Part shown: one piece after another, positions 46,172 through 63,609 of the stretch | How the letters are laid out: each line of letters starts with the position of its first letter | Position numbering within the stretch: the first letter of the stretch is position 1 | Assembly: GCF_000155775.1 (NCBI RefSeq) | Contig: NZ_DS989814.1 | Coordinates: forward strand, 40,265 to 104,264 | DNA length: 64,000 nt | Direction: 5' to 3' | Origin: Glaciecola sp. HTCC2999 | GTDB taxonomy: Bacteria > Pseudomonadota > Gammaproteobacteria > Enterobacterales > Alteromonadaceae | Program-made: the position numbers and the translations under genes | The notes under the pieces: generated by a model | Database searches by the model: none | What the model was told of the DNA's origin: nothing | What the model saw: only the letters and a program-made list of their open reading frames with translations

Positions 46172-48202
46172 ATGATCTCTAATTTAGGATATTGTGTTGC
46201 CTCAGCAGGATTTGTATTCTTGCTGTTTTTATTATTGACAGTGCGTCAAGGTGGGAAAGTTAAACTTCTGCTCATACTTGCTGTTGTGTCTAATTTGGTG
46301 TGGACGTTAGGATACAATAGTTGGATTTTCCCTGAGTCTGGACTTGATCAACACCTAACATTTGATTTATTGAAACAAGTCAGTTGGTGTGTGTTCCTAT
46401 GTATGGTCCTGCATAATCAATTGTCGGATACATTTCATTCGCGTTATAAAAAATTTAGATGGCTCGGATGGAGCATTCTATTTCTTACCATCGCAATCGT
46501 ATGGCTAATCACGGTCCCTGTGTCTAAGGTTTATTTGATTTATACGATAACAGCGCTAACGTTAATCCTCTTGTTAGTCATTTTGCAGCAACAAGCTGCC
46601 GAGAAAAAATGGGCTTTCATACCATTGATGTTATACCTAGTGATCATCAATATCTTTGATGTCGCCTGGTATGCATACAGTACTGAAGAGGCTGTGCTAG
46701 ATGCGAATTATATCGTTGTCAGAGGTTATGTTTATGCCTTGATGATCCCGTTTCTATTCTTGGCTGTTCGGCGCATGGAGCACTGGGGGATCAAGATATT
46801 TATATCGCGAGATATTATATTACACAGCACGCTATTGAGTGTAGCAGTCATATATGTATTCATTATGATCGTGCTTGGGTATATTTTTTCAAACTCCAGG
46901 GAATTCTGGAACACTTCAATTTTCGTCGGCATGATCATTCTATCGCTCATTCCTATCATGATATTGTTTTTATCGAGTCATATCCGCAATACATTTAAGG
47001 TGTTTATTATTAAACACTTTTTTGCAAATCAATTCGATTATCGAGCACAATGGGTTGAGTTAACTAATATACTGGCTAAAGGGGATGGTGGTATCTCCGA
47101 AGTTTATCAAACTGCCTTGCAAGGACTGATGAACTCGGTAAATTACGATAATGGCATATTGTGTAAGTTGGCGGGTTCTCATTATCAAATAGTGGCGAAT
47201 TCTAAGGCGCCCCCCCCGAGTGTTCCGGATGATCATTTATTGATGCAAGCGATTGCTTTTTTAAAGCAAAAGTCTTGGCTGATTGATTTGCATGAATTAC
47301 AAGTTAAACCTGAAAATTACATCGGTTTAGATATTGAATTACATGAAATCAGTGCCACTCAATATCAGTTTATTTTACCCATTTATCGCAATAGTGAATT
47401 ATGGGGAATCGCTGTGTTGTTTACACAAAGTGGTATTATCCGAAAGCTAAACTGGGAATTACGAGATTATTTAAATGCGGTATTAGCGCAGGTGAGTAAT
47501 TATGTATTGCATTATGAGGCGTCGAGAGAAGTTGCTGAAAATATGCAATTTTCAGCATTCAATCGTATGTCGGCATTTGTCGTCCACGACTTGAAAAACG
47601 TGATGGCGCAAGTTGAATTGATTTTATGTAACGCTCAGCAACATAAATCTAATCCTGATTTTATAGATGATACGTTTGAAACATTGAAATTCACGCAATC
47701 TCGAATGCAAAATATGCTTAAACAACTGACCGAAAAACAGCTGACTTCCGCACATAAAATGCAGCCAATAGATGTATGTAAGATTATTCAAGCGGTTATT
47801 ACGCAAAAGTGCGCCGCCTACAAACCGATACCTAGATTAGAGCATGAGCTTGTGGAAGCGGTAAGAGGTGATAGTGAAAAATTGAGTAATGTGTTTTATC
47901 ACTTGATCAATAATGCTCAAGAAGCTTCACCCAAGGATGGTTGTGTCACAATCCATGTCACCCAAAGTGACAATATCAATATGGTTAAAATAGTGATTAA
48001 GGATACTGGACATGGCATGAGTAAGACGTTTATTGATGAATGTCTATTCACGCCTTTCTATACGACTAAAGGTAATGCGGGTATGGGTATTGGTGCATAT
48101 GACGCGAAACAATACATTGAAGGAATTGGCGGAAGTATTAAAGTGAATAGCCGAGAAAATTTAGGCTCTACTTTTACGGTGTTACTGCCGATATATACCT
48201 AA
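46172..48202 (+). CDS. prsK: PrsK-type membrane sensor histidine kinase
   Basis: A 676-residue kinase. About eight or nine hydrophobic segments fill residues 1-270, followed by a GAF-like sensor region (about 295-445), the phospho-acceptor H472 in FVVHDLKNVMAQ, and the ATPase boxes NNAQEAS, DTGHGMS and TKGNAGMGIGAYDAKQYIEGIGG. This build matches PrsK, the kinase found with XrtA exosortase/PEP-CTERM exopolysaccharide systems. The regulator PrsR follows after 23 bases. No exosortase, PEP-CTERM or EPS genes are in the window. Confidence 0.85.
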   Translation: MISNLGYCVASAGFVFLLFLLLTVRQGGKVKLLLILAVVSNLVWTLGYNSWIFPESGLDQHLTFDLLKQVSWCVFLCMVLHNQLSDTFHSRYKKFRWLGWSILFLTIAIVWLITVPVSKVYLIYTITALTLILLLVILQQQAAEKKWAFIPLMLYLVIINIFDVAWYAYSTEEAVLDANYIVVRGYVYALMIPFLFLAVRRMEHWGIKIFISRDIILHSTLLSVAVIYVFIMIVLGYIFSNSREFWNTSIFVGMIILSLIPIMILFLSSHIRNTFKVFIIKHFFANQFDYRAQWVELTNILAKGDGGISEVYQTALQGLMNSVNYDNGILCKLAGSHYQIVANSKAPPPSVPDDHLLMQAIAFLKQKSWLIDLHELQVKPENYIGLDIELHEISATQYQFILPIYRNSELWGIAVLFTQSGIIRKLNWELRDYLNAVLAQVSNYVLHYEASREVAENMQFSAFNRMSAFVVHDLKNVMAQVELILCNAQQHKSNPDFIDDTFETLKFTQSRMQNMLKQLTEKQLTSAHKMQPIDVCKIIQAVITQKCAAYKPIPRLEHELVEAVRGDSEKLSNVFYHLINNAQEASPKDGCVTIHVTQSDNINMVKIVIKDTGHGMSKTFIDECLFTPFYTTKGNAGMGIGAYDAKQYIEGIGGSIKVNSRENLGSTFTVLLPIYT

Positions 48203-48225
48203 TCAAAGTTCATCAAGGATAGAAT

Positions 48226-49584
48226 ATGAGTAAGGTATTAATCGTCGATGATGATTTAGGGATCCAAAAACAGTTAAAGTGGAGTTTATCTGATTTTGAC
48301 GTGGTATTTGCAGATAATCGAGAATCGGCTATTACGCAATTACGTCGTCACGAACCGGCCGTCATAACATTAGATTTAGGCCTGCCACCAGATCCTGCCA
48401 ATGCTTCTGAAGGCTTAAAAGTTCTCGAAGAAGTACTTATGCTTGCGCCCTACACTAAAGTAATCGTCGTGACGGGCAATAATGATAAAACACATGCGCT
48501 GCAGGCTATAGAATTGGGGGCTTATGATTTTTATCAAAAACCGATTGACTCAGATACCATTAAAATTTTAATTTCACGGGCGTTATACGTATCTAGCTTA
48601 GAACGAGAAAACCGCCGTTTAGCTCTCTCTCGACAGCATTTAGGTCCTATTATAGGCGTGTCTGAGTCTATCCAAAACGTCAGTAGGCGTGTTGAGAAAA
48701 TAGCTAAAACTGATATTTCGACTTTATTATTGGGTGAAAGTGGAACGGGTAAAGAGGTTTTTGCTAGGCTTATACATGAGGGAAGTTCACGGGTAGACAA
48801 ACCGTTTGTAGCGATTAATTGCGCCTCGATTCCAGAAAATTTATTGGAAAGTGAGTTGTTTGGGTATGAAAAAGGTGCATTTACTGGCGCTAATAAAACC
48901 ACACTAGGAAAGATTGAGACGGCGCAAGGTGGTACGTTATTTTTAGATGAAATTGGTGATATGCCTATCAGTCTTCAGGCAAAAATGTTGCGCTTCCTTC
49001 AAGAACGCGTCATTGAGCGGGTTGGTGGGCGGAGTGAAATTAGTGTTGATATCCGCGTAATATGTGCGACTCACCGTGATATCCAAACGATGGTTAGCCA
49101 CGAAAGCTTTCGTGAAGATTTGTTTTATAGAATCGGCGAAATAATCATTAACATTCCACCATTACGAGATCGTGAAAGTGACGTGTTGTTATTAGCAAAA
49201 ACTTTCTTAAAGCAGTATACCCATGATTATGGAAGCAAAGTAAAAGGATTTAGCGATTCTGCGATGGCAGCCATGTTACATTATCAATGGCCAGGTAATA
49301 TTAGGGAATTACAAAACAAGTTAAAGTCTGCCGTGATTTTAGCTGAGGGAACAATTATTCATGCCGATGACTTATCGATAATGCCTGGCAATGAAGATGA
49401 AGTCTTGGAAGTATTCAATTTACGCTCGGTAAGAGCCGAAGCAGAAAGTCGCGCTATTCGACGAGCGTTTACTCAAGCCGACAAAAATATGTCAAAAACA
49501 GCTGCATTATTAGGCGTGACCCGGCCCACCTTGTATACACTTTTGGATAAATATCATCTTGATGATTTGAAAAATAATGCGTAA
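48226..49584 (+). CDS. prsR: PrsR-type sigma-54-dependent response regulator
   Basis: A 452-residue NtrC-type activator: receiver domain with phosphorylation site D50 and K105, AAA+ domain with Walker A GESGTGKE at 170-177 and the sigma-54 contact loop GAFTGA at 217-222, and a Fis-type C-terminal helix-turn-helix (MSKTAALLGVTRPTLYTLLDKY). The receiver segment VITLDLGLPPDPANASEGL is characteristic of PEP-CTERM-box response regulators. It should activate sigma-54 promoters of EPS/PEP-CTERM genes located elsewhere (inference). Confidence 0.87.
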   Translation: MSKVLIVDDDLGIQKQLKWSLSDFDVVFADNRESAITQLRRHEPAVITLDLGLPPDPANASEGLKVLEEVLMLAPYTKVIVVTGNNDKTHALQAIELGAYDFYQKPIDSDTIKILISRALYVSSLERENRRLALSRQHLGPIIGVSESIQNVSRRVEKIAKTDISTLLLGESGTGKEVFARLIHEGSSRVDKPFVAINCASIPENLLESELFGYEKGAFTGANKTTLGKIETAQGGTLFLDEIGDMPISLQAKMLRFLQERVIERVGGRSEISVDIRVICATHRDIQTMVSHESFREDLFYRIGEIIINIPPLRDRESDVLLLAKTFLKQYTHDYGSKVKGFSDSAMAAMLHYQWPGNIRELQNKLKSAVILAEGTIIHADDLSIMPGNEDEVLEVFNLRSVRAEAESRAIRRAFTQADKNMSKTAALLGVTRPTLYTLLDKYHLDDLKNNA

Positions 49585-53751: not shown

Positions 53752-54062
53752 CTTCTCAACGCCATAATTTAGTAGATATTTTGTTAACAGATTTAACCCG
53801 CAATTTTGTGCGGGTTTTGTTGTTTTTAGCCGTTATGGCCTCTGCCTTCGGTGTCGTGCTTAGCGCACAGTATAATCGTCAATTATCGATTCAAGTAGAA
53901 GCTTTAATGCAGGAACAGGATCGCCTTGATGTTGAATGGCGTCATCTGGTATTAGAACAAAGCGCACTTACCGAACATAATCGCATCGAGACGTTAGTCA
54001 ATAAAAAATTAAATATGAAGCGTCCAGATGTTGATAGTGAAATTGTGGTGAAAATAGAATGA
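53748..54062 (+). CDS. ftsL: Cell division protein FtsL
   Basis: A 104-residue bitopic protein: a short cytoplasmic tail, one membrane segment (about 20-40) and a periplasmic coiled coil ([22 protein letters not shown] region). It forms the FtsQLB complex activating FtsWI. Its ATG overlaps the rsmH stop (ATGA) and its own stop overlaps ftsI in the same way. Confidence 0.94.
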
Positions 54063-55801
54063 CAAAAAAACAAACATCACTTAAAGGCGCAACATCTAAT
54101 GTGCTACCTACTACGATTACGTGGCGTTTTACGCTAGTGATAGTTGCGATTGTATTTGTATTTGCAGGTATTGGTGCACGCGCAGCGTATATTCAGGTAA
54201 TTGAACCAGATCAACTGATTAAACAAGGTGATAATCGTTCTAAACGTGTGCGTCAGGCTGCGGTCCACCGTGGTCTAATTGTTGATCGAAATGGACAAGA
54301 ATTAGCTGTGAGTATTCCAGTGCAGGCAATTTGGGCTGATCCAAAAGTTATCGCTCAAAAGAATTCTCTACAAGACAAACGTCGCTGGGAAGCACTAGCA
54401 AAAGTATTGGATCGTGATACTGAAGCATTAATGGCCCGTGTTAGTAATCCAAAGCGTCGATTTGTATATTTGCAACGTCAAGTAACGCCTGCGATGGCTC
54501 AATATGTGGATGACTTAGATATTCCAGGCGTAAATTTAAAAGATGAATCACGTCGTTATTACCCCTCAGGAGAGGTCTCTGCGCATGTTATTGGCTTTAC
54601 TAATGTAGATGATAAAGGTATCGAAGGGATTGAATATTTGTTCAATGACTATTTAACAGGTACGCCAGATAAAAGACTTATTCGCCGTGATGGCCGTGGC
54701 AGACAAGTGGAAGTGATTGATGAAAAGGAAGGTGAAAAAGCCAGTGATCTAGTGTTAACTATCGACCAGCGTATTCAGTCTCTTGCTTATAAAGAAATTA
54801 AAAAAGCCTTAACCGTATATCAGGCACGCTCTGCGTCAGCCTTAGTGGTTGATATCGAAACTGCTGAAGTATTAGCGATGGTAAATGGACCATCATACAA
54901 CCCAAATAATCGTAAAAATACTGGCGCTCATCGCATTCGTAATCGTGTTGTCACTGATGCCTTTGAGCCTGGCTCTTCAGTCAAACCACTCGCGGTGTTA
55001 AGTGCGTTAGAGTTCGGTTCGGTCAATAAAGATAGCATTATTGATACGCATCCAGGCTGGATGCGTTTAGGCGGAAGCCGAGTGTCTGATCCACGCAATC
55101 TTGGTGAACTTGACTTACGTACCATTATTCAAAAATCGAGTAATATGGGCACCTCTAAATTAGCGCTGTCAGTGCCAAAAGAATTTTTACTCGACACTTA
55201 CTATAACATGGGATTAATGAGTGATACTGGGATGAATTTACTTGGAGAAAGCTCCGGTTTATTTCATGAACGTAGTCGCTGGTCGGATTTTGAATTAGCT
55301 ACGTTATCTTTTGGATATGGCATTTCGGTGACAACTGCTCAATTAGCCAGAATGTATACCACACTTGGTAATGGCGGGCTTCACCGTGAATTATCCATTA
55401 TCAAAAATCAACAAGTCAAAGAAGCAGAACAAGTATTTTCGCCAGAAAACACGCAAGCTGTGTTGGAAATGATGGAAACCGTCACGCAAAAAGATGGATC
55501 TGGCAGAAAAGCTGCCGTTAAAGGGTATCGTATTGCAGGTAAGACAGGAACCAGTAGGAAAGCTATTGCCGGTGGTTACGGTGATAACTATGTCAATATC
55601 TTTGCTGGTATAGCTCCGGTATCCGACCCACAAATTGTAGTGGTGGTACTCATAAATGAACCCGGCGGAGATCTGTATCATGCCGGTGATACTGCAGCAC
55701 CCGTGTTCTCAAAAATTATGGGTGGTGCGTTACAAATGCTAAACATTGCACCGGATGCGCAAGAAGCAACTCATATTGCGAATCTAAGTTTGAATGAATG
55801 A
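54059..55801 (+). CDS. ftsI: Septal peptidoglycan transpeptidase FtsI (PBP3)
   Basis: A 580-residue class B PBP with a membrane anchor near 22-44. The pedestal begins HRGLIVDRNGQELAVS. Catalytic motifs are SSVK at 306-309 (SxxK), SSN in IQKSSNMGTSK and KTG in IAGKTGTSRKA. It cross-links septal peptidoglycan with FtsW. In most relatives murE follows here; instead murF starts 12 bases after the stop. Confidence 0.98.
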   Translation: MTKKQTSLKGATSNVLPTTITWRFTLVIVAIVFVFAGIGARAAYIQVIEPDQLIKQGDNRSKRVRQAAVHRGLIVDRNGQELAVSIPVQAIWADPKVIAQKNSLQDKRRWEALAKVLDRDTEALMARVSNPKRRFVYLQRQVTPAMAQYVDDLDIPGVNLKDESRRYYPSGEVSAHVIGFTNVDDKGIEGIEYLFNDYLTGTPDKRLIRRDGRGRQVEVIDEKEGEKASDLVLTIDQRIQSLAYKEIKKALTVYQARSASALVVDIETAEVLAMVNGPSYNPNNRKNTGAHRIRNRVVTDAFEPGSSVKPLAVLSALEFGSVNKDSIIDTHPGWMRLGGSRVSDPRNLGELDLRTIIQKSSNMGTSKLALSVPKEFLLDTYYNMGLMSDTGMNLLGESSGLFHERSRWSDFELATLSFGYGISVTTAQLARMYTTLGNGGLHRELSIIKNQQVKEAEQVFSPENTQAVLEMMETVTQKDGSGRKAAVKGYRIAGKTGTSRKAIAGGYGDNYVNIFAGIAPVSDPQIVVVVLINEPGGDLYHAGDTAAPVFSKIMGGALQMLNIAPDAQEATHIANLSLNE

Positions 55802-55813
55802 GGCTATATTGAA

Positions 55814-57223
55814 ATGATTAACTTATCACTTATCGACATTGCCCAACAAGTCAACGGGACACTCCAAGGTAATGATCTCATCATTACTAACGTGTCGACG
55901 GATACGCGTGAGATTAGTGCTGATAGTTTATTTATTGCATTAGTTGGTCCTAATTTTAATGGTCACGTATTTGCTAATGAAGCCCGTCAAAATGGGGCGG
56001 TTGCGATGATTGCATCTGAACCGGTTGAAGCACATATGCCCGTCATCATGGTCGAAGATACTAAAGCTGCCTTAGGTGCATTAGGCGCATATGTTAAGCA
56101 AAAAGTTGCTCCTAAGACGGTTGGGATCACTGGTAGCTCAGGAAAGACGACAGTAAAAGAGATGACGACAGCTATCCTCAAAGAATGTGGAAGTGTGTTA
56201 TCGACTCAAGGTAACTTCAATAATGATATTGGTGTACCACTGACGTTACTCAGATTAGAAGCTGAACATGAATATGCGGTCATTGAGATGGGCGCAAATC
56301 ACATAGGTGAAATCGCTTATACCACAGGGCTGGTAAAACCGGATGTCGCCACGATTGTTAACGCTGCTGCATCTCATTTAGAAGGGTTTGGTAGTTTATT
56401 TGGTGTAGCCAGGGCGAAAAGTGAAATTTTTAAAGGATTGAGTAAAAGTGGTACTGCTATTCTGAATTATGATTCTCAGTTCTATGATTTTTGGCTAGGT
56501 AAATTAGATAATGAATTGATTTATTCGTTCTCATTAAATAGTGCGCCTGGTAAAGGCGCTGATTATAGTGCTTCTCAAGTTGGTTTAGCATTCAATGGTT
56601 GTGCGCATTTTATAATGCATACACCAATAGGTGAGATGAATATTGAATTGACTCTTCCAGGCATTCATAACGTAGGTAACGCGTTATTAGCTGCTGCCTT
56701 ATCCATTAATGTCGGTGCTAGCCTTGAAAATGTCCGAGATGGATTAGCAAAAATACAACACGTCAAAGGTCGTTTAGAGGTCAAACAGTTATCTGAAAAA
56801 GTGCGTTTACTTGATGATTCTTATAATGCCAATGTCGCTTCGGTGACCGCGGCAATTAAATTACTCAGTAGCTATGAAGGGCGTCGTGTATTGGTCCTTG
56901 GAGATATGGCTGAACTGGGCGATCAAGCTCGCCATTATCATGAACAAGTCGGTGAATTAGCGAAAAGCGAAAGCATTGAGATGTTCTATACATTGGGTGA
57001 GCTGAGTAAAAGTGCTAGTGACATGTTTGGCGAGGGTGGGCAGCACTTTTCTCATATTGAACCCTTACTAGATGCACTATACAAAGAATTATATGCAAAC
57101 GATAACGAGTTCACGATTTTAGTTAAAGGATCGCGCTCATCTAGAATGGATCGTGTTGTCACAGCAATAGAGGGAGCCCCACTAAGCAATGTTCAACATT
57201 ATGGGGGATTCACTGAATGCTAA
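55814..57223 (+). CDS. murF: UDP-MurNAc-tripeptide--D-alanyl-D-alanine ligase MurF
   Basis: A 469-residue Mur ligase. The ATP loop [14 protein letters not shown] is at 105-117; [33 protein letters not shown] and [12 protein letters not shown] identify MurF rather than MurE (no DNPR diaminopimelate motif). It adds D-Ala-D-Ala to the UDP-MurNAc-tripeptide. It sits directly after ftsI, the place where murE is normally found first. Its stop overlaps mraY by 7 bases. Confidence 0.97.
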
Positions 57224-58299
57224 TTTTATTAACCAACTGGTTAATGCAACTAGATATCGGGTTTAGTGTGCTGAACTATTTAACATTGCGGGCCATTTTG
57301 GCGACGTTAACTTCGTTGTTAATGGCGATTGTGATTGGACCTACCATGATCAAATGGTTGCAGCAATTACAAATTGGACAAACGGTTAGAGATGATGGAC
57401 CGCAAACGCATTTACAAAAAATGGGTACACCAACGATGGGTGGAGTACTGATTTTAGCAGCAATTATCACGAGTGTGATTTTATGGGCGGATCTATCTAA
57501 TAAATATGTCTGGGTGACACTGACGATTTTAATCGGTTATGGGGTTGTCGGATTCGTAGACGATTACCGTAAAGTCGTGAGAAAAGATTCAAAGGGTCTG
57601 ATCGCTCGTTGGAAATACTTTTGGCAAACTGTCATTGCATTAGCTGTCGCTATCTTCTTATATTCAACCACAACTCAAGCTGAAGAAACCCAATTAGTCG
57701 TGCCATTTTTTAAAGATGTAGTACCGCAGCTCGGATTAATGTATATCGCATTTGTGTATTTTACCGTGGTAGGCAGCAGTAACGCGGTCAACCTTACGGA
57801 TGGCTTGGATGGCTTAGCAATTGTACCCACTATTTTAGTGGCTGGTGCGTTGGCTATATTTGCATATGTAACGGGTAATATAAACTTTGCAATATATCTG
57901 CACATTCCATTTATCCCGCAAACGAGTGAGTTAGTCATAATATGCGGAGCTATTATTGGTGCTGGATTAGGATTCTTATGGTTTAACGCTTATCCTGCTG
58001 AAGTTTTTATGGGCGATGTTGGCTCTCTAGCGTTAGGTGGTGTTTTGGGGATTATCGCCGTTCTGGTACGTCAAGAAATAGTTCTAGTTATTATGGGCGG
58101 TATATTTGTTATTGAAACATTATCCGTCATCATACAAGTTGGCTCATTTAAACTACGTGGTAAGCGCGTGTTTAGAATGGCCCCTATTCACCATCATTTT
58201 GAATTAAAAGGTTGGCCTGAACCAAAGGTTATCGTTCGCTTTTGGATCATATCATTAATCTTAGTTTTGGTCGGCTTAGCCACCCTAAAGTTAAGGTAG
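57217..58299 (+). CDS. mraY: Phospho-MurNAc-pentapeptide translocase MraY
   Basis: A 360-residue integral membrane enzyme with about ten hydrophobic segments. [64 protein letters not shown] and [15 protein letters not shown] are the conserved loops and active-site aspartates and histidines. It makes lipid I. murD, expected next, is absent; ftsW starts 4 bases downstream with AAGGTAG overlapping the mraY end. Confidence 0.98.
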
Positions 58300-58303
58300 C
58301 ATA

Positions 58304-59590
58304 ATGAACTTCTCAGCCACCTCTTCAAATCTACAAGCGATGTTTGCTGCACGTCATGGTGATGCAAAAGCACCTATTGCTATGTATGATTTAGGTTTAG
58401 TGATGGTGGCATTAGCGTTAGTATCAATTGGTATTATTATGGTGGCATCAGCCTCCATGCCAGAAGGTATTGCGAAATATAACAATCAATATTTTTTCAT
58501 TATTCGACATGTTATTTTTAGTTGCCTTTCTTTCATCGTGGCTTTATTTGTACTCATGATCCCAATTAGTATGTGGCAAAAATATAATCCATATTTATTA
58601 TTTTTGGCTTTTGGATTATTAGTTGCAGTATTACTGGTAGGGCGTTCTGTTAATGGCGCTCAGCGCTGGTTAACCCTTGGACCGATTAATATTCAAGCTG
58701 CAGAACCGACAAAACTATTTTTCTTTTGTTTCTTAGCCGGATACTTGGAGCGTCGACATACCGAAGTAACCGAAAATATCAAAGGCTTCATCAAGCCTTT
58801 GCTTGTGTTTTTCGTTCTAGGATTATGTTTGTGGTCACAACCTGATTTAGGTACCACTATAGTGATGTTTATCACGACGATTGGATTGCTATTTTTAGCG
58901 GGGGCTAAACTATGGCAATTTATTGGTCTATTGTTAACAGGTGTCGTGTTATTTATTACTATGATCTTTCTAGAAGAATATCGTATGCGGCGGATAACTG
59001 CATTTCTTGATCCGTGGGCAGATCCTTTTGGTACCGGTTATCAACTGACTCAATCACTCATGGCTTATGGGCGTGGGGACTGGTTTGGACAAGGTCTGGG
59101 TAATAGTATTCAAAAATTACAATTTTTACCTGAAGCTCATACCGATTTTATCGTTGCTATTATTGCTGAAGAACTAGGTCATATTGGTATTATCGTATTG
59201 TTGGCATTACTCCTAACATTAGTCATAAAAGCCTTATTACTTGGTAAAAAAGCCTTAGATCAGCAAATGCCATTTGCAGGTTACATTGCTTATGGCATTG
59301 GCATTTGGTTTGCATTTCAAACATTTGTGAATATAGGTGGTAGCGCAGGTATGTTACCTACCAAAGGGCTGACTCTTCCTCTCGTAAGTTATGGTGGTTC
59401 TAGTATGATCATCATGGCAGTCGCAGTTGCATTGTTGATTCGTATAGATTTTGAATTACGATGTGCAGAAATTCACCTCCATAACAATACAACGAAAGCG
59501 AAAAAAACTAAGCAATCAAAAAAGACCAATGCATTAGCAGAATCTGATGCTGTATTTGACTCTTCAAATCCAGGAGGAGTCGATGCCTAA
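58304..59590 (+). CDS. ftsW: Septal peptidoglycan glycosyltransferase FtsW
   Basis: A 428-residue SEDS protein with about ten membrane segments. GRSVNGAQRWLTLGPINIQAAEPTK, SQPDLGTTIVMF, FLPEAHTDFIVAIIAEELG and KGLTLPLVSYGGSSMI are SEDS hallmarks. The cytoplasmic C-terminal tail is Lys-rich. It polymerises septal glycan with FtsI. Its 3' end overlaps the murG start by 8 bases. Confidence 0.97.
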   Translation: MNFSATSSNLQAMFAARHGDAKAPIAMYDLGLVMVALALVSIGIIMVASASMPEGIAKYNNQYFFIIRHVIFSCLSFIVALFVLMIPISMWQKYNPYLLFLAFGLLVAVLLVGRSVNGAQRWLTLGPINIQAAEPTKLFFFCFLAGYLERRHTEVTENIKGFIKPLLVFFVLGLCLWSQPDLGTTIVMFITTIGLLFLAGAKLWQFIGLLLTGVVLFITMIFLEEYRMRRITAFLDPWADPFGTGYQLTQSLMAYGRGDWFGQGLGNSIQKLQFLPEAHTDFIVAIIAEELGHIGIIVLLALLLTLVIKALLLGKKALDQQMPFAGYIAYGIGIWFAFQTFVNIGGSAGMLPTKGLTLPLVSYGGSSMIIMAVAVALLIRIDFELRCAEIHLHNNTTKAKKTKQSKKTNALAESDAVFDSSNPGGVDA

Positions 59591-60668
59591 CATACTTATT
59601 ATGGCTGGTGGCACAGGTGGTCACATTTATCCTGGATTAGCGGTGGCTCATCGACTAAAACAAGATAATTGGGATATTAATTGGTTAGGAACAGCAGACA
59701 AAATGGAAGCGCGCATTGTCCCTGAACAAGATATCCCTTTTCATACGATTAAAGTCAAGGGGATAAGAGGCAACGGGCTACTCAGAAAAATAGTCATGCC
59801 AGTGATGTTATGCCGCGCGGTATTTGATGCCTATCGATTAATTAAACGTATAAAACCTGATATCGTCTTAGGTATGGGAGGATATGCCAGTGGGCCTGGA
59901 GGCATCGCAGCTAAATTCTCATCAGTACCATTAATTGTACACGAACAAAATGCGATTGCCGGGATGACAAATCGTTATTTGGCAAAAATCGCGAGTCATG
60001 TATGTAGTGGATTTCCTCACACTGACTTTGGGGTACATCAAGATAAAGTAACCTATGTGGGTAATCCCGTAAGAGCCGCTATTGCAGCAATTCCTGATAT
60101 GCAAGAAAAGCCACAAACAGCATCGCTTAAGTTATTAGTCTTTGGCGGTAGTCTAGGGGCACGTATATTTAACCAAACACTTCCCAAAATATTACATGGT
60201 TTAAGTCAGAGCATACCGGGTCTCAATATTACCCATCAAGTGGGTAAAGGGAATCTAGCATCAGTACAAAATGCGTATTCACAATATAATTTCAAAGCGG
60301 ATGTGACATTACAGGTAACCGAGTTTATTGATGATATTGCAGCTGAATATGCCCAAGCTGATATGATTATTTGTCGAGCTGGCGCATCGAGTGTTGCTGA
60401 AATTGCTGCTGCGGGAAGAGTCGCTTGTTTTGTCCCCCTGCCTAGTGCGGTAGATGATCACCAAACCGCTAACGCTGAATATTTAACGAAAGCGGATGCA
60501 GGACGCTTGTGTCCGCAAGCTAACTTAGCCGAACTAGCACAGTATATTATGCCTTACTTAACCAATTCAAAAGCCCGGTTTCAGGCAGCAAAGCTTGCTA
60601 GGCAACTGAGTAAATCAGACGCGACCGAGCAAGTGTGCTTCATAATAAAAGGTCTATTAGATGAATAA
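59583..60668 (+). CDS. murG: UDP-GlcNAc--lipid I N-acetylglucosaminyltransferase MurG
   Basis: A 361-residue GT-B enzyme: ILIMAGGTGGHIYPGLAVA, GMGGYASGPGGIAA, VHEQNAIAGMTNRYLA, FGGSLGARIFNQ, ICRAGASSVAEIAAAG and PLPSAVDDHQTANA. It converts lipid I to lipid II. The ATG at 59583 follows GGAGG; an upstream in-frame codon is rejected. murC, normally next, is absent: ddl overlaps the murG end by 8 bases. Confidence 0.98.
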   Translation: MPNILIMAGGTGGHIYPGLAVAHRLKQDNWDINWLGTADKMEARIVPEQDIPFHTIKVKGIRGNGLLRKIVMPVMLCRAVFDAYRLIKRIKPDIVLGMGGYASGPGGIAAKFSSVPLIVHEQNAIAGMTNRYLAKIASHVCSGFPHTDFGVHQDKVTYVGNPVRAAIAAIPDMQEKPQTASLKLLVFGGSLGARIFNQTLPKILHGLSQSIPGLNITHQVGKGNLASVQNAYSQYNFKADVTLQVTEFIDDIAAEYAQADMIICRAGASSVAEIAAAGRVACFVPLPSAVDDHQTANAEYLTKADAGRLCPQANLAELAQYIMPYLTNSKARFQAAKLARQLSKSDATEQVCFIIKGLLDE

Positions 60669-61626
60669 AATCAAATTGGCTATTTTACTTGGCGGTCATT
60701 CAGCTGAACGGGAAGTATCTCTTGCATCAGGGGAGGCGGTATTTAAAGCTGTTCAAGCATTGGGAATAGAGTGCATTGCTTTTGATCCAAAACAACACCC
60801 TTTAACAAAACTGATAGATGAACAAGTCACTCACGCGATGATCATGTTACATGGTCGTGGTGGTGAAGATGGTACGATCCAAGGTGCTTTAGAATGGTTA
60901 AATATTCCTTACACAGGATCAGGTGTGCTAGGTTCTGCCATTGCAATGGACAAACTCCATACTAAGCATGTTTGGCAAGCATGCGGATTACCAACGGCTA
61001 AATATACTGAGATTAAAGCTCCGATATCGGTAGATGAGGCGCAAACTATTATGCTGAATATAGGTCCTGATTTGATGGTTAAACCCAGCCACGAAGGATC
61101 TAGTATAGGTATGTCAAAAACAGGCACTGCAGAAGAACTTATCTCCGCAGTCAATACCGCATTAACATATGATGAGCGAGTGTTAATAGAGCAGTATATT
61201 GTCGGTACAGAATATACTGTCAGTATACTTGGTGAAAACGCTTTACCAAGTATATCAATGGTCACACCAAATATATTTTATGATTATGAAGCAAAATATC
61301 AGACGAACACGACACAATATCACTGTCCGAGCGATTTAAATGACATAGATGAACGTGTCATAGGTCAATTGAGTTTAGATGCTTTTAAAGCGGTATCATG
61401 CAATGGCTGGGGTCGTGTAGATTTAATGCGAGATCAGAAAACTGACGAGTTCATATTATTAGAAGTTAATACGGTACCAGGGATGACAGCAAAAAGCTTA
61501 GTACCTAAAGCAGCAAAACAGGCTGGTTATGATTTCAATGAATTAGTTAAACAAATTTTAGTTTCTGCTTTTGGGACTGTTATTTTACCAGCGATACAGG
61601 CAGATACACAGGTGCCTTTGCAATGA
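60661..61626 (+). CDS. ddl: D-alanine--D-alanine ligase
   Basis: A 321-residue ATP-grasp ligase of the DdlB type. AILLGGHSAEREVSLASG, MLHGRGGEDGTIQGALEWLNIPYTGSG, VKPSHEGSSIGMSK and LLEVNTVPGMTAKSLVPKA are complete. It supplies D-Ala-D-Ala to MurF. Its stop overlaps the ftsQ start as ATGA. Confidence 0.98.
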   Translation: MNKIKLAILLGGHSAEREVSLASGEAVFKAVQALGIECIAFDPKQHPLTKLIDEQVTHAMIMLHGRGGEDGTIQGALEWLNIPYTGSGVLGSAIAMDKLHTKHVWQACGLPTAKYTEIKAPISVDEAQTIMLNIGPDLMVKPSHEGSSIGMSKTGTAEELISAVNTALTYDERVLIEQYIVGTEYTVSILGENALPSISMVTPNIFYDYEAKYQTNTTQYHCPSDLNDIDERVIGQLSLDAFKAVSCNGWGRVDLMRDQKTDEFILLEVNTVPGMTAKSLVPKAAKQAGYDFNELVKQILVSAFGTVILPAIQADTQVPLQ

Positions 61627-62345
61627 ATGAATTAGAACACCATCAATTAAAGATGCGCAAAGAAAAAGCCTGGGGGATGGGCTTTCTTATTGTGGTGTTT
61701 ACTAGTTTAATTATCGGCGGAACGGTATTAACAAATTGGATGGTAGATGAACAACAAGTACCTATCTCAAGTGTTCAAATATCTGGTCATTATACGTATA
61801 TAAAAGACCGTGATATTTCAAGACTGATTGCTAATGACATAGAGGGTAGCTTTTTTTCAGCAGATATTAATGATATCCATAGTGCGGTACTTAAACACCC
61901 TTGGGTCTATCAAGCATCGGTTCGAAAGAAATGGCCAAATACCATACAAGTCTATTTAGTTGAACAAACGCCTGTGGCAATTTGGAATGGCGATTTGTTG
62001 TTGAATGCAGAAGGTATTCCATTTGTTGGAAGTGTTGCTGGAGCTCAGCTCCCATTGCTTTTCGGTCCTAATGGCGCTGAAAAAACAGCATTATCAGGCT
62101 ATCAAGCTATGCAAATGATCTTATCTACAGGAACACTGACGGTAAAGAATTTAGTGTTGAGTGAACGTTTTGCTTGGCAGGTACAATTAAATAATGGGAT
62201 TAAATTAAATTTAGGACGACAAGAGTTTATTAATCGATTACAACGTTTTATTAATTTATACCCATTACTGCAACAGGATGAGCGCGATATTAATTACGTG
62301 GATCTACGCTATGATACAGGTATGGCAGTAGGTTGGCAGGCATAA
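61623..62345 (+). CDS. ftsQ: Cell division protein FtsQ
   Basis: A 240-residue bitopic protein: cytoplasmic tail, one membrane segment (about 18-40), a POTRA domain (ISSVQISGHYTYIKDRDISRL) and a beta domain with the HPWVYQASVRKKWPNTIQVYLVEQTPVAIW region. It recruits FtsL and FtsB to the septum. It is translationally coupled to ddl; ftsA follows after 37 bases. Confidence 0.96.
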   Translation: MNELEHHQLKMRKEKAWGMGFLIVVFTSLIIGGTVLTNWMVDEQQVPISSVQISGHYTYIKDRDISRLIANDIEGSFFSADINDIHSAVLKHPWVYQASVRKKWPNTIQVYLVEQTPVAIWNGDLLLNAEGIPFVGSVAGAQLPLLFGPNGAEKTALSGYQAMQMILSTGTLTVKNLVLSERFAWQVQLNNGIKLNLGRQEFINRLQRFINLYPLLQQDERDINYVDLRYDTGMAVGWQA

Positions 62346-62382: not shown

Positions 62383-63609
62383 ATGTCTAAAATAGACGAG
62401 TCTAATTTGGTAGTTGGATTAGATATAGGGACAAGTAATATTAAAGCCGTCATCGGTGAGATGTTGGATAATCATTTTGTCAGTATAGTAGGTGTTGGTA
62501 CCTATCCTGCAAAAGGGATGGATAAAGGCGGTGTTAATGATTTGAATCTCGTTACCCAGTCAATTCAACGTGCTGTTAATGAAATGGAATTGATGGCAGA
62601 TTGTAAAGCATCTTCGGTCCTTATGGCGATAACAGGCAGACACGTACAGTGTCAAAATGAGACTGGTATGGTAGCGATAAATAATGCCGAAGTGGATCAA
62701 GAAGATATTGATAATGTAATCCATACCGCCCGTTCTGTTCCGATTCCAGCTGAACGTAGAATGCTACATGTACTTCCTCAAGAATACACAGTTGATGTGC
62801 AAGAAGGGGTTAAAAACCCGATCGGCATGTCAGGTGTCCGAATGAATGCGAATATCCATATCATTACTTGTGCTGAAGATATGGCAAAAAATTATATTAA
62901 ATGTACTGATCGTGCTGAATTAGTCGTGGATACTATGGTGTTTTCCGCATTGGCGGCGAGTTATTCCGTATTGACAGATGATGAACGTGAATTAGGCGTG
63001 TGTGTCGTTGATATTGGTGCAGGCACGATGGACCTAGTGATATATTCTAATGGTGCCATTCGTCACTCAGCGGTCATACCGGTAGCAGGCAATCAAATTA
63101 CTGGTGATATAGCTAAAATATTTAGAACACCTGTGAATAATGCTGAAGCATTGAAGGTCCGTCATGCTTGTGCTTTAAAAGATATGGTCAGTATTGAAGA
63201 TACAATTAACGTTCCTAGTGTAGGTGGGCGTCCAGCGCGAACGATGTCACGACACACGTTAGCTGAAGTGATAGAACCAAGATATCAAGAACTCTTTGAG
63301 TTAATTCATGAAGAAATTAAAGCAAGCGGTTTAGAAGAGCAGATTGCCGCAGGGATAGTCCTCACTGGCGGGACGGTTAAAATGGAAGGCGCGGTAGAGT
63401 TTGCCGAGGAAATTTTTCAAATGCCTGTACGAATAGGTACACCAAATAATATCAAAGGACTAACGGATTATGTCAATGACCCAAGTTTCGCGGTAGCGAT
63501 TGGGTTATTACAATATGGACGACAATCAATAGAAGAACAAGTGTCACAAAAATTACCGACAGAAAGTATATTTAATCGCATAAAATCGTGGTTTAAAGGC
63601 GAATTTTAA
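62383..63609 (+). CDS. ftsA: Cell division protein FtsA
   Basis: A 408-residue actin-like ATPase tethering FtsZ to the membrane. LVVGLDIGTSNIKAVIGE and VDIGAGTMDLVIY are phosphate loops, ITGRHVQCQNETGMV lies in the FtsA-specific 1C (SHS2) domain, GIVLTGGTVKMEGA is the adenosine site, and the C-terminal amphipathic tail (FNRIKSWFKGEF) is the membrane-targeting sequence. Confidence 0.98.
   Translation: MSKIDESNLVVGLDIGTSNIKAVIGEMLDNHFVSIVGVGTYPAKGMDKGGVNDLNLVTQSIQRAVNEMELMADCKASSVLMAITGRHVQCQNETGMVAINNAEVDQEDIDNVIHTARSVPIPAERRMLHVLPQEYTVDVQEGVKNPIGMSGVRMNANIHIITCAEDMAKNYIKCTDRAELVVDTMVFSALAASYSVLTDDERELGVCVVDIGAGTMDLVIYSNGAIRHSAVIPVAGNQITGDIAKIFRTPVNNAEALKVRHACALKDMVSIEDTINVPSVGGRPARTMSRHTLAEVIEPRYQELFELIHEEIKASGLEEQIAAGIVLTGGTVKMEGAVEFAEEIFQMPVRIGTPNNIKGLTDYVNDPSFAVAIGLLQYGRQSIEEQVSQKLPTESIFNRIKSWFKGEF

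Follow-up and report, generated by a model that had tools for sequence, protein, structure and literature searches.

Glaciecola sp. HTCC2999 and its closest relatives, marine bacteria with small genomes, lack murC, murD and murE, the genes for three ligases of peptidoglycan stem-peptide synthesis, and these genes have neither been relocated nor been missed through an artefact. The loss is visible in the division and cell wall (dcw) cluster of a 64,000-nucleotide stretch of the HTCC2999 genome (contig NZ_DS989814.1, positions 40,265 to 104,264 of the forward strand), which we call the window and whose coordinates we use throughout. What remains of the pathway suggests that peptidoglycan in this group may well be built with salvaged external murein peptide as the main source, a reading in which our confidence is evenly divided, and in which the muropeptide ligase Mpl takes the place of the missing enzymes.

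Three closed junctions in the dcw cluster

The cluster in the window reads mraZ-mraW-ftsL-ftsI-murF-mraY-ftsW-murG-ddl-ftsQ-ftsA-(start of ftsZ), all discussed genes lying on the plus strand. Gene identities come from an NCBIfam scan, with mraZ, mraW, ftsL and ftsZ named from position and sequence only. In the canonical gammaproteobacterial cluster murE, murD and murC occupy the ftsI-murF, mraY-ftsW and murG-ddl junctions; here there is no space for any of them. The gene ftsI (54059..55801), encoding PBP3, was assigned by its place in the cluster and its best NCBIfam model (FtsI NF011685, 637 bits, under the cut-off of 737). It is followed, after 12 bp at the site of the missing murE (55802..55813), by murF (55814..57223; TIGR01143, 443.7 bits, cut-off 288.6), the sole ligase of the stem-peptide series remaining in the cluster. 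Then comes mraY (57217..58299; TIGR00445, 490 bits, cut-off 192), separated by 4 bp at the site of the missing murD (58300..58303) from ftsW (58304..59590; TIGR02614, 417 bits, cut-off 337.5). The start of murG (59583..60668; TIGR01133, 328 bits, cut-off 250) was chosen from the sequence, the score being that of the longest open reading frame, which begins at 59547. At the site of the missing murC, murG overlaps ddl (60661..61626; NF002378, 386 bits, cut-off 243) by 8 bases (60661..60668). The cluster continues with ftsQ (61623..62345), placed by cluster position with a score under the cut-off (NF008043, 223 bits against 366), and ftsA (62383..63609; TIGR01174, 486 bits, cut-off 176). A preliminary description of the window had reported these three junctions, and their coordinates proved exact. 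It had also raised the possibility of a fused Mur ligase; the window MurF has 469 amino acids and scores 441 bits with the MurE-MurF fusion model against a cut-off of 1023, so that no fusion is present.

Querying GTDB contigs with the window MurF gave 80 loci. Five of them (L034-L037 and L049; Glaciecola sp. by title, one of them HTCC2999) are 76-81% identical to the window MurF and, judging from identity and gene order, are probably congeneric with the genomes described below. In these five and in the locus of the single-contig genome G004 (L195), that is in 6/6 other genus loci, murE, murD and murC are likewise missing. The remaining 75 loci all have ftsI-murE-murF-mraY-murD-ftsW-murG-murC-ddl intact. 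Junction spacing differs slightly among the genus species, without remnants of the lost genes: 6-12 bp at the first junction and 4-32 bp at the second in 7/7 loci, and an overlap of 4-8 bases (-4 to -8 bp) at the third in 6/7, the value for L037 (-945) being ignored as a wrongly picked start. In a tree of six dcw proteins (38 rows; support values not read) the genus loci form one group, whose sister group includes Alteromonas, Aestuariibacter and other Glaciecola. Since the genus loci stand together in this tree, a single loss of murC, murD and murE in their ancestor would be the simplest history.

Absence of MurC, MurD and MurE across the genus

Ten genomes (G000-G009), labelled by similarity as the Glaciecola sp. 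HTCC2999 group and here called the genus, were searched for the Mur ligase domain PF08245, which covers MurC, MurD, MurE, MurF, Mpl, FolC and similar ligases. The whole-genome search reads through stops and picks up the distant FolC as well. G000, the genome of the window, is 82% complete; G004 is a single contig of 2.53 Mb and 99% complete. By this search the window's genome has only MurF, Mpl (L002) and FolC (L003, in two pieces in one frame). Three matches were found in eight of the ten genomes and four in the other two, where the extra match is explained by the divided FolC (G000) or by four matches arising from three candidates (G008). Every genus genome, the single-contig one included, thus has just three Mur-ligase-fold proteins, compared with five to eight matches in 20/20 other relatives from the family and order. 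MurF and Mpl were identified in all ten; the remaining protein proved to be FolC in the three genomes where it was typed (G000, G004 and G007) and is FolC-like by score and length only in six more, the third candidate of G008 not being among the matches listed.

Wider draws gave a similar picture. Among 196 genomes of the family, eight genus members show the same low count, and fewer than five matches were found in only 3 of the 188 others, all three 71-80% complete. A draw of 299 genomes from the phylum, filtered at 95% completeness (G000 nevertheless appears in it, at 82%), held four further genomes with three matches, which have other ligase sets, and a 0.9-Mb genome (G370) with none. We considered whether G233, G255, G271 and G303 from the phylum, or G052, G125 and G190 from the family, represent other lineages with the same loss; they are incomplete in other ways, and the combination of MurF, Mpl and FolC occurred in 0/7 of the low-count non-genus genomes typed, a set that leaves aside G370 and genomes with four or five matches.

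With only three Mur-fold proteins in 10/10 genomes, we conclude that murC, murD and murE are absent and have not moved. The preliminary description is thus borne out, in 7/7 loci and 10/10 genomes, in holding that three functionally linked genes went together, leaving no scars and sparing murF; its suggestion that the three genes had moved together is not, none of the Mur-fold proteins being MurC, MurD or MurE where typed. An artefact, with the genes in unassembled DNA or too diverged for detection, has in its favour the 82% completeness of the window's genome, yet ten genomes are alike, one of them a single contig at 99%, the junctions are closed in 7/7 loci, and the search recovers the far more distant FolC; we hold this explanation to be exceedingly improbable. 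The two outcomes that the preliminary description named as fatal to it fared accordingly: close relatives with ordinary dispersed murC, murD and murE were looked for and did not turn up, the trait of the genus being absence, and ten assemblies make an assembly error very unlikely.

Mpl, probably the only loading enzyme left

Because MurC, MurD and MurE are absent while Mpl is kept, Mpl is very probably the sole known enzyme left for loading peptide onto UDP-N-acetylmuramic acid (UDP-MurNAc), and this the only loading step. The Mpl of G000 is canonical (TIGR01081, 763 bits, cut-off 389), and the Mpl-specific motif SAFFDKRSK is present in 5/5 genus Mpls aligned. The published account of Mpl (PMC3060825) gives this motif and states that Mpl links the tripeptide and, less well, the tetra- and pentapeptide to UDP-MurNAc, that it is ordinarily dispensable and that multicopy Mpl rescues a thermosensitive murC mutant. 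As for the next ligase, of 108 MurF positions invariant in outgroups one is altered in all genus rows and four in some; with MurF so nearly unaltered, its substrate is probably unchanged, and the genus MurF most likely still takes UDP-MurNAc-tripeptide.

Measured against MurF, Mpl also appears to have evolved at a slower pace in the genus than in outgroups. The median Mpl/MurF distance ratio was 0.52 within the genus (range 0.33-0.81; 43/45 pairs) and 0.70 among outgroups (0.51-1.05; 153 pairs), although the pairs are not independent, kinship is ignored and the two ranges overlap. Eight outgroup pairs of like divergence (MurF difference of at most 0.35) gave ratios of 0.64-1.05. Pairs were dropped if they differed in MurF by less than 0.05 or shared fewer than 120 columns; G014 and G029 stood outside the comparison, and only 306 common columns of MurF were used, several outgroup loci holding a partial gene. 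Leaving MurF uncut gave medians of 0.44 and 0.69. The rate of MurF itself in the genus is not above the usual when set against mraW, mraY, ftsW and ftsA, and is slightly faster against ftsI (1.24 versus 1.06). A slower Mpl fits, without proving, the idea that Mpl has become essential.

These results bear on the possibility that unrelated enzymes have replaced MurC, MurD and MurE stepwise on UDP-MurNAc, with Mpl merely recycling as it does in relatives. Mpl was indeed recovered from 18/18 relatives tried, which keep six to eight PF08245 matches, and the PurD-like protein c2 described below proves that unassigned ligases are present in the genome. Against this, three new ligases would be needed, Mpl is relatively slower in the genus, and the glutamate racemase MurI is gone too; we regard stepwise replacement as unlikely. 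The cells might alternatively make little or no ordinary peptidoglycan. In the genus the rates of murG and ddl (59583-61626) relative to that of MurF are roughly double those in outgroups, and the alr1 sequences of G000 and G004 share only 45% identity; FtsI, FtsW, MraY, MurG, MurF, Ddl, FtsQ and FtsA, however, are full-length and mostly keep their outgroup-invariant positions, which makes this explanation highly improbable.

Other cell wall genes lost and kept

MurI scored above cut-off in 0/10 genus genomes, compared with 15/20 other relatives. Weak matches to the MurI model occur in seven genus genomes, with none whatever in G002, G007 and G008. We considered that these might be MurI paralogues; typed in G000 only, the weak matches there include an aspartate/glutamate-type racemase (L197:8223-8957, minus strand; TIGR00035, 244 bits), which has a homologue in G004. 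Outside the genus, MurI is below cut-off in G011, G013, G014, G016 and G025 despite five to eight PF08245 matches. MurB was found in 9/10 genus genomes, the exception being G007 (89% complete), Alr and the muropeptide permease AmpG are above cut-off in all ten, and the AmpD family PF01510 is present in all ten; the AmpD equivalog scores 246 bits (cut-off 143) in G000, the sole genome scanned for it. An exchange of AmpG specific to the genus was considered and set aside, the same subfamily occurring in G010, G016, G017, G025 and G026. The genes dapF and lysA adjoin mpl, by Pfam in G000 and as homologues in 5/5 genus mpl loci fetched. The loss found is therefore that of the D-glutamate and tripeptide branch; the sugar, D-Ala-D-Ala and lipid steps persist to the extent that they were searched for, a search that did not include MurA.

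As to import, each of the ten genomes has one SBP_bac_5 protein. We considered it as part of an MppA-Opp importer; in G000 it is instead SapA-like (539 bits, cut-off 560) and lies beside pspF in a psp-sap locus. In that genome pspF adjoins a sapABCDF-type transporter, with homologous order in G004, G012 and G015 (L219, L220).

The pathway that remains resembles the AmpG-AmpD-Mpl recycling of E. coli, the Mpl, AmpG and AmpD families being common to both. In E. coli Mpl is non-essential and supplements de novo synthesis by MurC, MurD and MurE, whereas in the genus these ligases and MurI are absent and Mpl is the only known entry. Neither Mpl as sole entry, nor the loss of MurI, nor the peptidoglycan-utilisation locus that the genus has kept was foreseen in the preliminary description.

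A peptidoglycan-utilisation locus and a salvage model

Near alr1 the genus carries a locus with NamZ (10/10 genomes), MurQ (9/10) and a GH3 beta-N-acetylhexosaminidase (9/10); the two misses, in G001 and G003, fall where the fetched stretches end. Such loci, with GH3, NamZ, MurQ and alr1, lie at L258:1938-9328 and L259:899-9456 and in L225, L226 and L307. The GH3 enzyme of G004 scores 214 bits (cut-off 207), MurQ 385 bits in G004 and 403 bits in G000 (cut-off 302), and NamZ was assigned by Pfam. In both genomes GH3 and NamZ start with a hydrophobic N terminus, weakest in the NamZ of G004. The locus of G001, G005 and G006 also holds a TonB receptor, a long protein of amidase/beta-lactamase fold, GGT and an NhaC-type carrier, and the additions across loci comprise GGT, the TonB receptor, the amidase/beta-lactamase-fold protein, M14 and DUF885. 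Next to the locus is putA and, in several genomes, also purA. Around alr in G010, G012, G015, G018 and G025 no such locus was found, the rest of these genomes being unsearched. Among the 20 relatives, a long (more than 800 amino acids) Amidase_2 protein occurs in G011, G013, G014, G016 and G017, and it coincides with MurI below cut-off in four (Fisher 0.005, phylogeny ignored).

The searches show that the known de novo branch to UDP-MurNAc-tripeptide, comprising MurI, MurC, MurD and MurE, is lost in the genus. We propose that Mpl would load salvaged murein tripeptide onto UDP-MurNAc, after which MurF, MraY and MurG, judging from their genes, would proceed as usual. Recycling only returns existing material, and a cell cannot achieve net growth from its own turnover; since AmpG and AmpD turnover gives no net growth, the tripeptide would have to come from outside. 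Its likely source would be the murein of other bacteria, cut by the exported GH3 hexosaminidase and NamZ of what would be an old locus, with the TonB receptor and amidase perhaps also serving the utilisation locus in some species, and the tripeptide would presumably enter through AmpG or a peptide carrier. Murein eating probably came first, MurI was probably lost next and MurC, MurD and MurE last, the likely end being an obligate murein-peptide auxotroph.

Several observations weigh against this salvage model. LdcA (PF02016) was found in 0/10 genus genomes; we set it aside as a marker, since it is rare in relatives also (5/20). A dedicated tripeptide importer of the MppA type was not found in the genus, and the retention of dapF and lysA is accounted for by lysine alone. 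The aspartate/glutamate-type racemase could provide D-glutamate in some members. The overlap and kinship of the Mpl/MurF comparisons, given above, count here too. Only 3/10 genus genomes were found to have the long amidase. The NamZ/MurQ locus is also present in G013, G016 and G017, which have a full Mur set; G017 has the locus yet keeps MurI, G025 lacks both MurI and a locus near alr, and MurI is missing from 5/20 relatives that keep sets of a size to include MurC, MurD and MurE. As the locus and the loss of MurI are each found with full Mur sets, neither alone signals dependence. HTCC2999 is an isolate in culture, maintained on a seawater medium, and a literature search turned up neither growth nor muropeptide data for the genus. 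HTCC2999-like Glaciecola accounted for 57% and 44% of the clones from diatom-bloom mesocosms (PMC5243806), an abundance that would imply a heavy demand for foreign murein. Finally, the model leaves unaccounted for a pair of genes present throughout the genus, to which we now turn.

A PurD-like ligase paired with an Alr-type racemase

A second Alr is above cut-off in 10/10 genus genomes and in only 2/20 relatives (G018 and G020). Its gene, c3, overlaps that of an ATP-grasp protein, c2, and the pair is present in all ten genomes (L253:9564-11989, minus strand, in G000; L252:8291-10671, plus strand, in G004). Upstream, 9/10 genomes have one gene that is metY-like and another for a coiled-coil protein; in the tenth, G006, the contig starts near c2. 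The pair adjoins rpsO-truB-rbfA-infB-nusA in G000, the one genome in which these genes were typed, and likewise in G001, G004, G008 and G009.

By its score c3 has the alanine racemase fold (TIGR00492, 326 bits, cut-off 168), and its best-scoring matches among solved structures are alanine racemases, presumably of the Firmicutes type. It is foreign to the family: the c3 sequences form a single clade (100/99) at the end of a long branch, separate both from the family's Alr and from the additional Alr copies of G018 and G020. The aligned positions of the lysine that binds pyridoxal phosphate (PLP), the catalytic tyrosine and the arginine are kept; beside them stand MSRWG, NTGG and GGNAMD, which differ from Alr in 10/10 genomes. 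The partner c2 falls well short of PurD (TIGR00877, 91 bits against a cut-off of 288), and has the PurD fold by Foldseek (3.5e-22) in a model built from 10 close sequences with a predicted confidence (pLDDT) of 70. The PurD loops DGLAAGKG and GPNTGGMG are replaced in c2, and the E-x-N motif, presumably for metal binding, is kept. Between G000 and G004, c2 and c3 are 65% and 60% identical, similar to MurF (68%), Ddl (61%) and FtsW (59%). Against plasmids and phages c2 reached at most 28.3% identity among the matches listed (25 and 20 rows), which, where annotated as genes of their own, are purD or phosphoribosylamine-glycine ligase; viral contigs held no relatives of c2 or c3. A literature search on the pairing of ATP-grasp proteins with racemases returned nothing related.

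The pair suggests a different source of the peptide, the main rival to salvage: c2 and c3 could provide the D-residue and form one or more of the amide bonds in a free tripeptide, to be loaded by Mpl. A racemase and an amide ligase are exactly the activities lost. The occurrence of both genes in all ten genomes, the overlap of the genes, the restriction of a second Alr, among the genomes searched, to the genus and two relatives with Alr of a different clade, the distinct c3 clade with altered residues beside kept positions, the departure of c2 from PurD within the same fold, and identities comparable to those of MurF, Ddl and FtsW all favour such a route. On the other side, c2 as a single ligase would face two different bonds, so that a second ligase would be needed for the other; the neighbours of the pair in G000, the metY-like, coiled-coil and rpsO-truB-rbfA-infB-nusA genes, show no link to peptidoglycan; and we know of no PLP racemase of the Alr family, that of c3, that acts on glutamate. 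We therefore hold a new de novo route through c2 and c3 only tentatively, as possible and yet doubtful. The fuller proposal, that in a free-living genus the stem tripeptide is assembled off the nucleotide without a Mur ligase, by the PurD-like ligase and the recruited racemase, before Mpl loads it and MurF acts, seems to us rather improbable.

Apart from these genes, the window holds upstream of the dcw cluster (46172-49584) an XrtA/PEP-CTERM two-component pair, both members above cut-off: the histidine kinase PrsK at 502 bits and the response regulator at 692 bits.

Discussion

Known systems offer partial parallels. Tannerella forsythia is an auxotroph for MurNAc, and dependence on murein parts of others is what it would share with the genus as we propose it; there the amino-sugar branch is lost, whereas the genus keeps MurB (9/10) and has lost the peptide branch. 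In Xanthomonas MurD2 and MurL form an alternative to MurI that needs a MurD-like ligase. The preliminary description had considered such a route, for which the genus lacks the ligase, none of the MurD type being found (MurL itself was not searched). Enterococcus has a pair consisting of a racemase and an ATP-grasp D-aspartate ligase; as with c3 and c2, the racemase gene lies beside that of the ATP-grasp ligase, but the enzymes are of other families. Loci for peptidoglycan utilisation with NamZ are of a known kind and share with that of the genus NamZ, an exported GH3 hexosaminidase and MurQ, and in some species an amidase and a TonB receptor; unlike them, the locus of the genus goes together with loss of its own stem-peptide synthesis. 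Literature searches on HTCC2999 itself, on auxotrophy involving Mpl or MurC, on muropeptide cross-feeding and on lack of MurC gave no report of this loss in titles and the beginnings of abstracts, and searches on HTCC2999 with peptidoglycan and on murein in seawater found nothing.

MurC, MurD and MurE are regarded as indispensable in wall-building bacteria and hence as drug targets. A marine genus seemingly without them since its last common ancestor implies that a cell can forgo the central part of the pathway. It would do so either by living on the walls of others, murein then being a public good shared among marine bacteria, or by new chemistry. The association of a murein-eating locus with loss of MurI in relatives points to steps by which such dependence could arise. 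If either is true, it would change how the cell wall gene content of environmental genomes is read.

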